Below, piece by piece: positions 46,109 through 60,979 of a DNA stretch of 64,000 nucleotides; positions within the stretch are counted from its first letter, which is position 1, and each line of letters opens with the position of its first letter. The notes beneath the pieces are model-generated. The model was not told where the DNA came from. It was given only the letters and a program-made list of their open reading frames with translations, and did no database searches. The position numbers and the translations under genes were made by a program. Source of the DNA: Terriglobia bacterium (GTDB lineage: Bacteria > Acidobacteriota > Terriglobia > Bryobacterales > Bryobacteraceae); NCBI GenBank assembly GCA_020073305.1, contig JAIQFK010000017.1, forward strand, positions 62,001 through 126,000, read 5' to 3'.

Positions 46109-46441
46109 TCAACCACCCGCCCTTTCCACACGAATCATCTGCACTTCCGACACGGCCATTAACCCAGTATCCATCATTTCCGCGGCCACCGGCACGAGCC
46201 GCTCGATATTCTCTGCCGTATCGATAATCGTGATCACCACGGGCCGGTCGCTCCGAACCAAATGCGCTTTGTGCATCTCGGCGGTTTCCCCGTAGCCTTC
46301 GAGGCCCAGAAAGACCGAGGCCCCGGCGATCTTTAGCTCCCGGCATTTCGCGACGATCGCCTCGTACAGCGGCTTGCCCTCGAAGCGATCCGATTCCGAG
46401 ATGTGAATGCGCAGGATTTTAGCGGTTTGAATCGGTCGCAT
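46109..46441 (-). CDS. DUF190 protein, fluoride operon
   Basis: 110 residues forming one DUF190 domain (PII-like ferredoxin fold), with the typical KILRIHISESDRFEGKPLYEAIVAKC and GASVFLGLEGYG. Such proteins are regularly encoded beside CrcB fluoride channels but their role is unknown; a trimeric small-molecule sensor is possible from the fold. It overlaps the upstream two-domain DUF190 gene by 23 bases and has GGAGGCG as ribosome-binding site. Confidence 0.85.
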   Translation of the reverse strand: MRPIQTAKILRIHISESDRFEGKPLYEAIVAKCRELKIAGASVFLGLEGYGETAEMHKAHLVRSDRPVVITIIDTAENIERLVPVAAEMMDTGLMAVSEVQMIRVERAGG

Positions 46442-47153
46442 CGGGCGCCTCCGCTACCTTCTGACTTCGAACCATCCGCACAATGTCGGCGTCGGAGATC
46501 ACAATCAGGCCGTCTTCCAGCATGTCCTCAATCGCTGCAGCCGCGGCCATGATTTTTTCCGGACTGTCAATCACCGACAGCATGATGGGCATGTCGCGCG
46601 ATACGTGGAAAAAGCTCTTCTTGTGCTGGTGGCCCTTAGCCCCATAACCGAGAATGCCGCGATACACAGTGGCGCCGGCGATGTCCATCATGCGCAGCTT
46701 CTTCACGATCGCGTCATAGAGTGGCTCGCCGTGCCACTTGTCTGCCTCTCCGATGAACACCCGCAGCAGCTTGGCGTGGCCCGCCTTGCGTTCATGCGGA
46801 AGCTTCGGCTCGGGCCGGGTTGACTTGCGGGCGAGTTTGATGACCGTGGTGTCTTGCACCTCGATGAGCCCGTCGGTGACCATTTCGTAGAGAGTGGGCA
46901 GAATCTCCTCTACCTTTTCGGGCGTTTCGACAAACTCGATTCGGATCGGCAGGTGCTGCGCCAACACCTCAATCTTGGGCGTGTGCAGCATTTGATGCGA
47001 GCCGAATCCTGCATAAGCGCGGGTGGCCGTCGCGCCCGAGACTCCCTTGTGCATGAGAAAGCTCATGATGGAATCGTGCAGCGCCGTCATGTGATGCTGG
47101 GTGTCTTCATTGATGAAGATGGTAACCTTCTTCGCGGGACCCTTTGTCAGCAT
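46419..47153 (-). CDS. Tandem DUF190 protein, fluoride operon
   Basis: 244 residues carrying two DUF190 domains (about 1-110 and 125-235). The blocks KKVTIFINEDTQHH, ATRAYAGFGSHQ and LRVFIGEADKWHGEPLYDAIV, GATVYRGILGYGAKGH are repeated. The gene starts ten bases after crcB, so the fluoride operon encodes three DUF190 units. An internal duplication of this kind probably forms a pseudo-trimer or larger PII-like assembly. A role in fluoride response is inferred from the riboswitch-controlled operon. Confidence 0.85.
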   Translation of the reverse strand: MLTKGPAKKVTIFINEDTQHHMTALHDSIMSFLMHKGVSGATATRAYAGFGSHQMLHTPKIEVLAQHLPIRIEFVETPEKVEEILPTLYEMVTDGLIEVQDTTVIKLARKSTRPEPKLPHERKAGHAKLLRVFIGEADKWHGEPLYDAIVKKLRMMDIAGATVYRGILGYGAKGHQHKKSFFHVSRDMPIMLSVIDSPEKIMAAAAAIEDMLEDGLIVISDADIVRMVRSQKVAEAPDATDSNR

Positions 47154-47163
47154 TCCGCCTCCT

Positions 47164-47544
47164 TTACAGCCAACGCCGAAGGGCGAGCAACGCGCCCAGC
47201 CATACGCCGAGATAGCCGAGCGCCACGCTGCCCGTCAGGTACAGCATACCCATCCAGCGCGCGCCATCGCGAACCGCCTGATAGGTCTCGTACTCGAAGC
47301 TGGAAAACGTCGTGTATCCGCCGAGAATCCCCACCACTAGGAACAGGCGCCAGTTCGGGTGCGGCTGCAACCGCTCTGTGAATAGCGCCATCAGCACCCC
47401 GATCAGGAACGAGCCGGTGATGTTGATGATGAACGTGCCAAGCGGAAACCGCCCGCCGTATTTCGCCATGATCCACGTGCCCGCCACGTAGCGCGCCAAA
47501 CCCCCGAGCCCGGCTCCCGCCAGCACTACCAAGTATCTGTCCAA
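47164..47544 (-). CDS. crcB: CrcB/Fluc fluoride ion channel
   Basis: 126 residues with four membrane helices. The family signatures GLGGLARYV, NITGSFLIGVLM and GYTTFSSFEYE are present; the last contains the Thr/Ser/Phe residues lining the fluoride pore of Fluc channels. The protein exports fluoride as an antiparallel dimer in the inner membrane. The start is TTG with AGGAG ten bases upstream. A fluoride riboswitch precedes the gene by about 80 bases, so expression should rise with fluoride. Confidence 0.93.
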   Translation of the reverse strand: MDRYLVVLAGAGLGGLARYVAGTWIMAKYGGRFPLGTFIINITGSFLIGVLMALFTERLQPHPNWRLFLVVGILGGYTTFSSFEYETYQAVRDGARWMGMLYLTGSVALGYLGVWLGALLALRRWL

Positions 47545-47702: not shown

Positions 47703-48233
47703 CTAGTTCTTGTGGTGCAGGCGGCTGCAGGCGGCCTCGGCGCCGCTCGAGTCGATCGCTGTCTTGCCCTCTTCGATGTACTGGATCTTGCCTTCTTTGT
47801 CGACCACGAACGTCGACCGGTTGGCGATGCCCAACTCGGCAATGAGCACTCCGTAGTCTTTGGCCACTTGCCGCTTGGAGAAGTCGCTCAACAGCGGGAA
47901 GGTCAGCTTATTTTTTTCCGCGAATTCTTTTTGCGACGGGGTGAAATCTTCACTGATGCCGAACACCTGAGTGTCGGCGCCATCGAATTTGGCGATACCA
48001 GCCTGGTACGCCAGCATTTCTTTGGTTCAACCGCCGGTGAACGCCGCCGGAAAGAATGCCAGCACCACATTCTTCTTGTCGCGGAAATCCGACAGCTTGA
48101 CCTGCTGCCCGGTAGTCGAGGGCAACGTAAAATCCGGCGCCTCATCGCCAACTTTCAGTTGAGTCTTCGGCGGGTTCACTTGGCCGAACAGAATTGTCGC
48201 CGTGGCCAGCGCGAGGTAACAAAAATTACACAT
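47703..48233 (-). CDS. Selenocysteine-containing peroxiredoxin, AhpC/TSA-like, with in-frame UGA
   Basis: 176 codons read through one TGA (48027-48029). The N-terminal part has a signal peptide (residues 1-17) and the peroxiredoxin fold [11 protein letters not shown]. The UGA is codon 69 in [14 protein letters not shown], exactly where peroxiredoxins have the peroxidatic Cys of FxPxxFTxxC. The frame continues after it as [19 protein letters not shown] and [16 protein letters not shown], so the gene is intact on both sides. A SECIS-like hairpin follows the UGA. It should reduce peroxides in the periplasm or at the membrane. A Cys near the C terminus ([10 protein letters not shown]) could resolve. 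Alternative: a nonsense mutation, which is less likely. Confidence 0.82.
47997..48026 (-). other. Bacterial SECIS-like element of the peroxiredoxin mRNA
   Basis: Directly after the UGA, ACCA pairs with UGGU and the inner stem CUGG/CCAG carries the loop CGUA. The inner stem begins 12 bases after the UGA, close to the 11-base spacing of E. coli fdhF, and has a G in the apical loop. It lies inside the coding sequence, as bacterial SECIS elements do. Base pairing is seen; SelB binding is inference. Confidence 0.55.
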
Positions 48234-48290: not shown

Positions 48291-49262
48291 TCAGAACCCG
48301 ATTTGCAGTTGTGTCAGGAAGACCCCGCTCAGCCGGACCGACGCAGGCTCCTGGCGCACGCCGCCATTCGCCTCGATGCGCACCTTCCGCCAGGGGTAGT
48401 AATTCGCGCCAGCCAGCCAGGTCTGCGTTCTGGCGTTCGCCTTATCTGTATTCGAGGTGTACCAATCGTCGCGAACCAGGCCCTCCCACTTCTTCGACCA
48501 GTGCCACACGGCCAGCGCGTAGCCGCCGCGCCGGTGGGTGTTTCCGTCGCGGCCCCACAAATATTCCGCGTCTACCGTCAACGGCCCGCGGACGTAGCGG
48601 GCCTCGGCGCTTTGGCGGATCTTCTCCTTATGCGCCGGAGCGGAAAAACTCCGGTACATGTCGCCTGCAATCTGCAGGCCGTGCCAAACGTGCGCCACTG
48701 CGCGGGCCGCGGCGGCGTGGTAACGCGGTTGCGGGGAGTTTATCAGCAACTCACCACTGAACACCCCGGCGAAATACTCGATAGAGCGTGACGATCCGAA
48801 AGTGCCCGAAAGCTGAACTCCAGAATCCCGCCCCTGCGTGCCGATGTCGCGCGCTGGAACGAGTGCGTTCACCGCTTTGGCTCGTTCGATTGGCACTTCG
48901 AGATTATCCGCAGTCAGGCTGGACAAACTAAATGGAAGCTTGAACTGACCGGCTGTGAATTTCAACGCTCGCGCCACCTTGAATTCCACCTCCGCGTCCA
49001 GCAGGTTCGGCAGCTTCACAACGTCCCCTTGAATCAGGTAGCTGATTCGTCGCCCCAGTTCGCCGCTCATCAACAGCCGGACTCTCCGGACCTCCAGCCG
49101 GTCCGGCGTGTCGCGGGTATCCGTGAAACGGCCTTGAACGTACCCGCTCAAGTGAAAGACGGAGCCATTACTTGGAGCGGGAGCAGGGCTCTGGGGCTGG
49201 GTGTTGTTGTCGCCCGCCAGCGCACCCAGACACAGAATCGCTGCCACCACCCCGGAGAACAT
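48291..49262 (-). CDS. Phosphate-selective porin-type outer-membrane protein
   Basis: 323 residues with a signal peptide and alternating beta strands. Features of the OprP/OprO-like family are FHLSGYVQGRFTDTRD, RRVRLLMSGELGRRISY and KLPNLLDAEVEFKVARAL near the start, and a C-terminal strand ending QLQIGF. A 16-strand porin for anions is expected, but the phosphate or pyrophosphate specificity cannot be confirmed. It lies 57 bases upstream of the peroxiredoxin gene on the same strand. Confidence 0.8.
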   Translation of the reverse strand: MFSGVVAAILCLGALAGDNNTQPQSPAPAPSNGSVFHLSGYVQGRFTDTRDTPDRLEVRRVRLLMSGELGRRISYLIQGDVVKLPNLLDAEVEFKVARALKFTAGQFKLPFSLSSLTADNLEVPIERAKAVNALVPARDIGTQGRDSGVQLSGTFGSSRSIEYFAGVFSGELLINSPQPRYHAAAARAVAHVWHGLQIAGDMYRSFSAPAHKEKIRQSAEARYVRGPLTVDAEYLWGRDGNTHRRGGYALAVWHWSKKWEGLVRDDWYTSNTDKANARTQTWLAGANYYPWRKVRIEANGGVRQEPASVRLSGVFLTQLQIGF

Positions 49263-59979: not shown

Positions 59980-60979
59980 CATCGTTCTGCTGGCGCACGG
60001 CGGCGGGGGCAAGCTCACCAACCAGCTCATCGAGCGGATCTTTCTTCCCGCTTTTGCGTGCACGCCGCTCGAGGCCCGGCACGATGGCGCGGCGCTCGAT
60101 CTGAACGGGCAACGCCTGGCATTCACCACGGATTCCTACGTGGTGCGGCCGCTCGTGTTTCCCGGCGGGACCATCGGCGACCTGGCGGTGAACGGCACGG
60201 TGAATGACCTCGCCATGTGCGGTGCGCGGCCGCTGTACTTGAGCGCAGGTTTCATCCTGGAAGAAGGACTGCCCCTGGAAACGCTGCGCACGGTGGTGGA
60301 GAGCATGCGCACGGCAGCCGCGAGAGCGGCGGTGCAACTGGTCACTGGCGACACCAAAGTAGTGGACAAGGGTAAAGGCGACGGGATTTTCATCAACACC
60401 GCGGGTATCGGGGTCATCGAGGCCAGCGCCGCAATCAGCCCGGCCGCGGTTTGCGCCGGAGACGCCATCATCGTGAGCGGCGATTTGGGTGCACACGGCG
60501 TGGCCATTCTCTCGGTGCGCGAGGGCCTGGAGTTCGAAGCGCCGGTGGAGAGCGATACGGCGCCGCTTTGGGAGCCGGTCGAGGCGCTTCTCAAAGCTGG
60601 AATCGAAGTGCACTGCCTGCGTGACTTGACGCGCGGCGGATTGTCGTCAGCACTGAATGAAATTGCAGCGGCGGCAAGAGTAGGCATGGAAATTTCCGAG
60701 CGGGCTGTGCCGGTAAGAGAGGTGGTACGCGGGGCGTGCGAGATCCTGGGTCTCGATCCGCTTTACGTGGCGAACGAGGGCCGGTTTGCGGCGATTGTTG
60801 CGGGGCAGGATGCGGAGCGGGCGCTGGAATTGTTGCGCGGTCATCCGATGTGTGCGAGTGCGGCGCGGATCGGCGTAGTCACGGACACGCCGGCCGGTAT
60901 GGTGACGCTCGAAAGCCGCGTCGGCGGGCGCCGCGTACTGGATATGCTGAGCGGGGAGCAATTGCCAAGGATTTGCTAA
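59933..60979 (+). CDS. hypE: Hydrogenase expression/formation protein HypE
   Basis: 348 residues of the PurM-like ATPase fold. [16 protein letters not shown] and [19 protein letters not shown] form the ATP site, and [15 protein letters not shown] follows. The C-terminal end LPRIC places the cyanated Cys at the terminus, as required. ATG at 59933 is within hypD; GGAAGG upstream supports it. With HypF it makes the CN ligand. No hydrogenase structural gene is in the window. Confidence 0.94.

Follow-up and report, generated by a model that had tools for sequence, protein, structure and literature searches.

A predicted selenocysteine peroxiredoxin with an in-frame UGA at the peroxidatic position in a Terriglobia bacterium genome

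The interrupted peroxiredoxin frame and its relatives

In the window analyzed here (the whole stretch of 64,000 nucleotides from contig JAIQFK010000017.1 of a Terriglobia bacterium), the reading frame of a peroxiredoxin is interrupted by an in-frame UGA at the place where the catalytic cysteine is expected. The question raised by this locus is whether the UGA is read as selenocysteine (Sec), or whether it marks a damaged gene, the end of a short product or the insertion of some other residue. The first-pass annotation had proposed one gene at positions 47703-48233 without naming its strand; the coordinates are correct, and the gene lies on the minus strand (48233-47703), where a single peroxiredoxin frame of 176 aa runs from the start codon ATG (48233-48231) to the stop codon UAG (47705-47703). 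A Shine-Dalgarno-like sequence AGGAGG (48243-48238) can be read upstream of the ATG at 48233. The sole interruption of the frame is the UGA at codon 69 (48029-48027), and with translation table 11 the gene appears as two ORFs, 48027-48233 (68 aa) and 47703-48017 (104 aa). The earlier suggestion that these two frames are in the same phase and together make a full peroxiredoxin was borne out by a Pfam profile search, in which the read-through protein matched AhpC-TSA (PF00578) with an E value of 1e-39 and Redoxin with an E value of 1.4e-28. The protein stays below the cut-off of every one of the 15 NCBIfam models listed for it, and automatic annotation may therefore split such genes.

The UGA stands exactly at the peroxidatic Cys position, within the motif PxxxTxxU (P62-T66-U69), and the P and T of this motif are found at matching places in 118 of 130 family genes. 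These genes were collected from one bacterial order, in which 257 genomes were searched; matches were obtained in 254 of them, many being probably other peroxiredoxins. Among the matches listed, a family set of 130 genes was fetched (30 loci plus 100 more, L029-L158), and about 20 further listed matches lie outside this set. The codon aligned with codon 69 is TGA in 104 of the 130 fetched genes and TGC or TGT in 26, with no other codon. The earlier observation that UGA replaces the catalytic Cys in FTGG-U-TKEM thus agrees both with the motif and with the relatives, all of the non-UGA copies fetched (26 of 26) having Cys at this residue. The 104 UGA copies stem from 103 genomes, the source genome included. 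In addition, a scan of named genomes gave 36 loci, of which the six nearest (66-81% identity) all belong to MAGs, labelled Acidobacteria, Solibacteraceae, Candidatus Solibacter usitatus, Bryobacterales and Bryobacteraceae.

This distribution bears on the possibility that the UGA is a nonsense mutation or a sequencing error in a Cys peroxiredoxin, so that the locus would be a pseudogene or contain a wrong base. A single base indeed separates UGA from TGC and TGT, which encode Cys, and the source genome (6.98 Mb, 99.89% complete) is a draft assembly in 51 contigs. However, the same codon is UGA in 104 of the 130 family genes, and the hairpin described below is conserved at synonymous sites. Furthermore, dN downstream of the UGA is well below dS: it ranges from 0.017 to 0.198 in all but one of 15 pairs of UGA copies, with dS several-fold higher or saturated, as is also the case upstream. 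The fifteenth pair (L056/L065), whose sequences behind the UGA are of unequal length and were compared ungapped, is out of register and its dN of 0.50 is uninformative. These substitution rates indicate that both parts of the gene, before and after the UGA, are under purifying selection, and we regard a mutation or an error as an explanation of almost negligible probability.

A further possibility is that the gene in fact yields the short form, either as a 68-aa peptide ending at the UGA or as one of two forms, short and long, between which the UGA would switch depending on selenium. Sec insertion in bacteria competes with termination, which speaks for such a product, but the sequence after the UGA evolves under purifying selection and holds R139 and C169, both invariant in 64 aligned proteins. 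A functional short form is accordingly very unlikely as the main explanation, while a minor switch role of the UGA is possible.

The neighbors of the gene on the minus strand are a CrcB family gene followed by two DUF190 genes (46109-47544) on one side, and Porin_O_P (48291-49262) on the other. When these four neighbors were compared by tblastn with 35 loci around related copies (L030-L058 and L168-L173; 2.1-6.5 kb each), no match was obtained at 1e-3. The neighborhood was rejected as a functional clue, and no operon role is claimed, because the four neighbors were not found at the 35 related loci.

The hairpin downstream of the UGA

A hairpin beginning 12 bases downstream of the UGA had been noted in the first-pass annotation. 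The hairpin is present, but its start in the minimum-energy fold is 13 bases after the UGA. It occupies positions 48013-47990 of the minus strand and has the structure GGCG-UACCA-[GGC]-UGGUA-(U)-CGCC plus one outer U-A pair (-13.1 kcal/mol), with the apical loop GGC at 48003-48001, a bulged U at 47995 and a UGA-to-loop spacing of 23 nt. The bacterial SECIS model, as given in the accessible part of PMC13188914, comprises a loop of 3-9 nt, a stem of at least 4 bp, a G at loop base 1 or 2, a spacing of 16-37 nt and an MFE of -7.5 or lower; the loop, stem, spacing and MFE of the window hairpin all fall within it.

The energy of this hairpin is mildly unusual (z -1.76; 9 of 200 shuffles fold as well), and the RNAalifold consensus contained only 3 pairs. 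The fold energy of a single sequence is by itself weak evidence for a SECIS, whereas the comparative evidence is strong. Single-sequence energy and RNAalifold were both set aside as proof of a SECIS, being too weak alone, and were replaced by counts of named structures and by synonymous recoding. Using a custom script, the published SECIS model was found to fit 94 of the 104 UGA copies versus 2 of the 26 Cys copies, and the four core pairs are formed in 99 of 104 UGA copies versus 1 of 26 Cys copies. The exceptions among the UGA copies are thus 10 that miss the SECIS rule and 5 without one core pair. When the same proteins were recoded with the family's own codon usage (20 runs), a mean of 14 of 104 sequences fitted the model (range 6-22), and the core pairs persisted in 0-7 of 104. 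The difference between 94 real and, on average, 14 recoded sequences argues that the RNA itself is under selection.

The same constraint can be observed in individual codons behind the UGA, which were compared with codons elsewhere, that is, in the rest of the same open frames with some bases before the start codon included. At codon +8, all 103 Gln codons are CAG (412 of 594 elsewhere). At codon +9, Ala is encoded by GCT in 73 of 73 cases (346 of 2516 elsewhere) and Ser by TCT in 19 of 19 (112 of 1461 elsewhere), and at codon +10 GGT makes up 97 of the 103 Gly codons (361 of 1808 elsewhere).

Covariation was analyzed in an alignment of 96 of the 97 distinct stretches of the UGA set (L062 was left out). 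The covariation value was 0.112 versus 0.041 in shuffled alignments, none of 500 shuffles being as high, and the pair A23-U33 is replaced by U-A in five rows. Further pair types, one of five measures, stayed within the range of the shuffles in the UGA set (56 of 500). Paired cells amount to 74.2% in the UGA copies versus 46.9% in the Cys copies. The covariation value of the Cys set, 0.171, likewise exceeds what shuffling gives (10 of 500 as high), and relatedness or remnants of the hairpin could explain this. The mean fold energy differs little between the UGA (-10.9) and the Cys copies (-9.2; p 0.019), and the lower stem pairs in one of two registers, offset by a single base, depending on the copy. 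Overall, the codon freezing, the covariation and the loss of the structure in Cys copies indicate that the downstream hairpin behaves as a SECIS. The Y-Q-[AS]-G that is conserved after the active site in the Sec form is thus in part an RNA signal.

Selenocysteine machinery and the distribution of Sec and Cys forms

The genes needed for Sec insertion, whose presence had been proposed earlier as a check, were all found in the source genome. Profile searches identified selA (508 bits), selB (359 bits, covering positions 1-578 of the 581 model positions) and selD (368 bits, with one in-frame TGA), and a tRNA-Sec was detected with 76.5 bits and called by ARAGORN as tRNA-SeC with the anticodon tca (UCA). 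These results bear on the possibility that the UGA encodes a residue other than Sec, such as Trp, through reassignment or readthrough. An in-frame UGA alone does not specify the residue; nevertheless, the presence of selA, selB, selC and selD, the SECIS-type hairpin behind the UGA and the Cys at this position in the non-UGA relatives fetched all speak for Sec, and other thioredoxin-fold frames of the genome (L160, L162, L166 and L167) terminate at TGA. Decoding as a residue other than Sec is thus highly improbable. Of the two conditions that the first-pass annotation had named as refuting its reading, a genome lacking the Sec genes and homologues with a different residue here, neither was borne out in this genome and the relatives fetched. 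Judging from these sequence data, we are strongly confident that the gene is a genuine selenocysteine peroxiredoxin, with Sec predicted at the peroxidatic residue 69.

Three further genes of the source genome have an in-frame UGA in a redox or selenium context. One is selD itself (L024, position 1531, G000:C36), in which the in-frame UGA is followed by a 7-bp hairpin with a GGU loop. Another (L159, 1453-1908 of the minus strand, G000:C4) is the second UGA peroxiredoxin of the genome, of the BCP type with TPGU-TTE, and it scores 162.6 bits against the thiol peroxidase model NF006960 (cut-off 140). The third (L161, approximately 1102-1968, G000:C5) encodes a Prx-like protein with the UGA in WUPFC (UxxC type), the motif being preceded by hydrophobic stretches as judged by eye. 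The stretches behind the UGA can fold into hairpins in all three genes, which were folded without shuffle comparison, and we consider the three as further selenoprotein candidates. In the window, positions 60065-60736 gave a weak match to the selD model (44 bits, below the cut-off), and this is probably another AIR-synthase-like protein.

In the order as a whole, selA was found above the cut-off in 206 of 257 genomes; among 14 control genomes only E. coli gave a match. Together with UGA copies in at least 103 of the 257 genomes, this points to selenium-based peroxide defence as a common trait of the order, whose members are common in soil. Of the 103 genomes with a UGA copy, 90 have selA and 13 have no selA match at E <= 1e-60; six of these 13 are listed as more than 90% complete (G002, G010, G056, G164, G169 and G172). 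The missing selA matches in the 13 genomes are likely due to gaps in draft assemblies. As many as 14 of the 23 Cys-only genomes do have selA, and the Cys form is therefore not simply tied to loss of the machinery.

A quick tree was built without the Sec and SECIS columns. On this tree the Sec/Cys label changes 13 times by parsimony, but the well-supported (starred) branches force only 2 changes, and therefore neither the number nor the direction of the switches is claimed. The clearest case of a Sec/Cys switch is the genus g8. Genome G046 (98% complete, 4 contigs) gave no match for selA, selB or tRNA-Sec; it has the Cys form (L158), which shares a starred branch with the UGA copies of G047, G050, G052 and G053. 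Among the six sisters of G046 that were searched, five have selB and tRNA-Sec, while G053 (79% complete) gave a match for neither but has selA. G052, which has a UGA copy and no selA match, was outside the selB and tRNA-Sec search. In some lineages, including the one without detectable Sec machinery, the UGA may have changed to a Cys codon and the hairpin may have decayed.

A Cys copy (TGC) of G083 retains the whole SECIS hairpin (L081, 493-540), and likely represents a recent Sec-to-Cys change. In G060:C135 (16147-17356; L053 and L063), a Sec and a Cys form of the peroxiredoxin are arranged in tandem, about 200 bases apart, and a similar tandem pair is listed for G123:C299. The coexistence of Sec and Cys versions of a single enzyme constitutes a natural experiment, which spans one genome without detectable selA, selB and tRNA-Sec and one Cys copy with a SECIS hairpin.

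Predicted structure, proposed catalysis and comparison with known peroxiredoxins

The AF2 model of the protein has a pLDDT of 92.7 and places Sec69 in the first turn of a helix formed by residues 67-78. The closest solved fold is that of AhpE (Z 25.9, rmsd 1.4, 151 aligned residues, 40% identity), the next rows being tied with it; by sequence, the best solved relatives are a peroxiredoxin-like protein (2ywn/4g2e) and Mycobacterium tuberculosis AhpE. Arg139 (47819-47817), invariant in the 64-row alignment, is taken here to be the Arg of the peroxiredoxin active site. All 130 family members have a Cys close to the C-terminus; in the window it is Cys169 (47729-47727), likewise invariant in the 64 aligned proteins, and located in the last helix of the model (residues 163-175). 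Sec69 and Cys169 are likely to form the catalytic pair, with Cys169 as the candidate resolving residue. A hydrophobic segment lies N-terminal to the domain in 122 of 130 family members, which is why export is considered likely. In the window this putative export signal comprises approximately residues 1-20 (48233-48174), although its own N-terminus is without the usual positive charge; the protein is probably exported.

Based on these features, the following mechanism can be suggested. SelB carrying Sec-tRNA(UCA) would bind the hairpin 13 nt behind the UGA and decode codon 69 as Sec. The enzyme, having an AhpE-like fold, would be exported, and Sec69 would attack peroxide outside the cytoplasm, yielding a selenenic acid. 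The conserved Cys169 would most likely resolve this acid by forming a selenenylsulfide with it, to be reduced in turn by a thioredoxin-like partner. The complete picture, namely a widespread, exported, AhpE-like selenium peroxidase that acts outside the cytoplasm through a Sec69-Cys169 pair, present in its UGA form in no fewer than 103 of 257 genomes and with a Y-Q-[AS]-G shaped by the SECIS, is put forward tentatively, as a reading that is somewhat less likely than not.

As for earlier reports, the accessible part of PMC1794560 gives three families and four selenoproteins for Acidobacteria, and lists 12 Sec peroxiredoxins overall, and that of PMC12013277 mentions three known selenoprotein genes in the acidobacterium Occallatibacter riparius. 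The acidobacterial selenoproteins of either paper may include the present family. No description of the present subfamily was found in the open-licence papers searched, where phrases for periplasmic or exported selenoproteins gave no match.

Among known systems, the best NCBIfam model by score is the BCP/PrxQ thiol peroxidase model NF006960, with 84 bits, under its cut-off of 140. The present family differs from BCP/PrxQ in that, for 126 of its 130 members, the domain contains no further Cys apart from residue 69 and the one near the C-terminus. With M. tuberculosis AhpE the protein shares the fold, but AhpE is titled a 1-Cys peroxiredoxin, whereas the present protein has a second Cys that is conserved, and Sec in the place of Cys. 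Finally, Sec peroxiredoxins with TxxU are an established selenoprotein family, as described in the accessible parts of PMC13188914, which cites the Eubacterium acidaminophilum protein, and of PMC1088965, in line with the first-pass statement that peroxiredoxins are among the bacterial selenoproteins. The score of 60.3 bits against the NCBIfam PrxU equivalog NF040737, below its curated cut-off of 270, suggests that the present gene belongs to a different subfamily of the known Sec peroxiredoxins. It shares with them the AhpC-TSA fold, the PxxxTxxU active site, the UGA at the peroxidatic residue and the SECIS just downstream, and differs from them by its probable export signal and by the Cys in its C-terminal helix.
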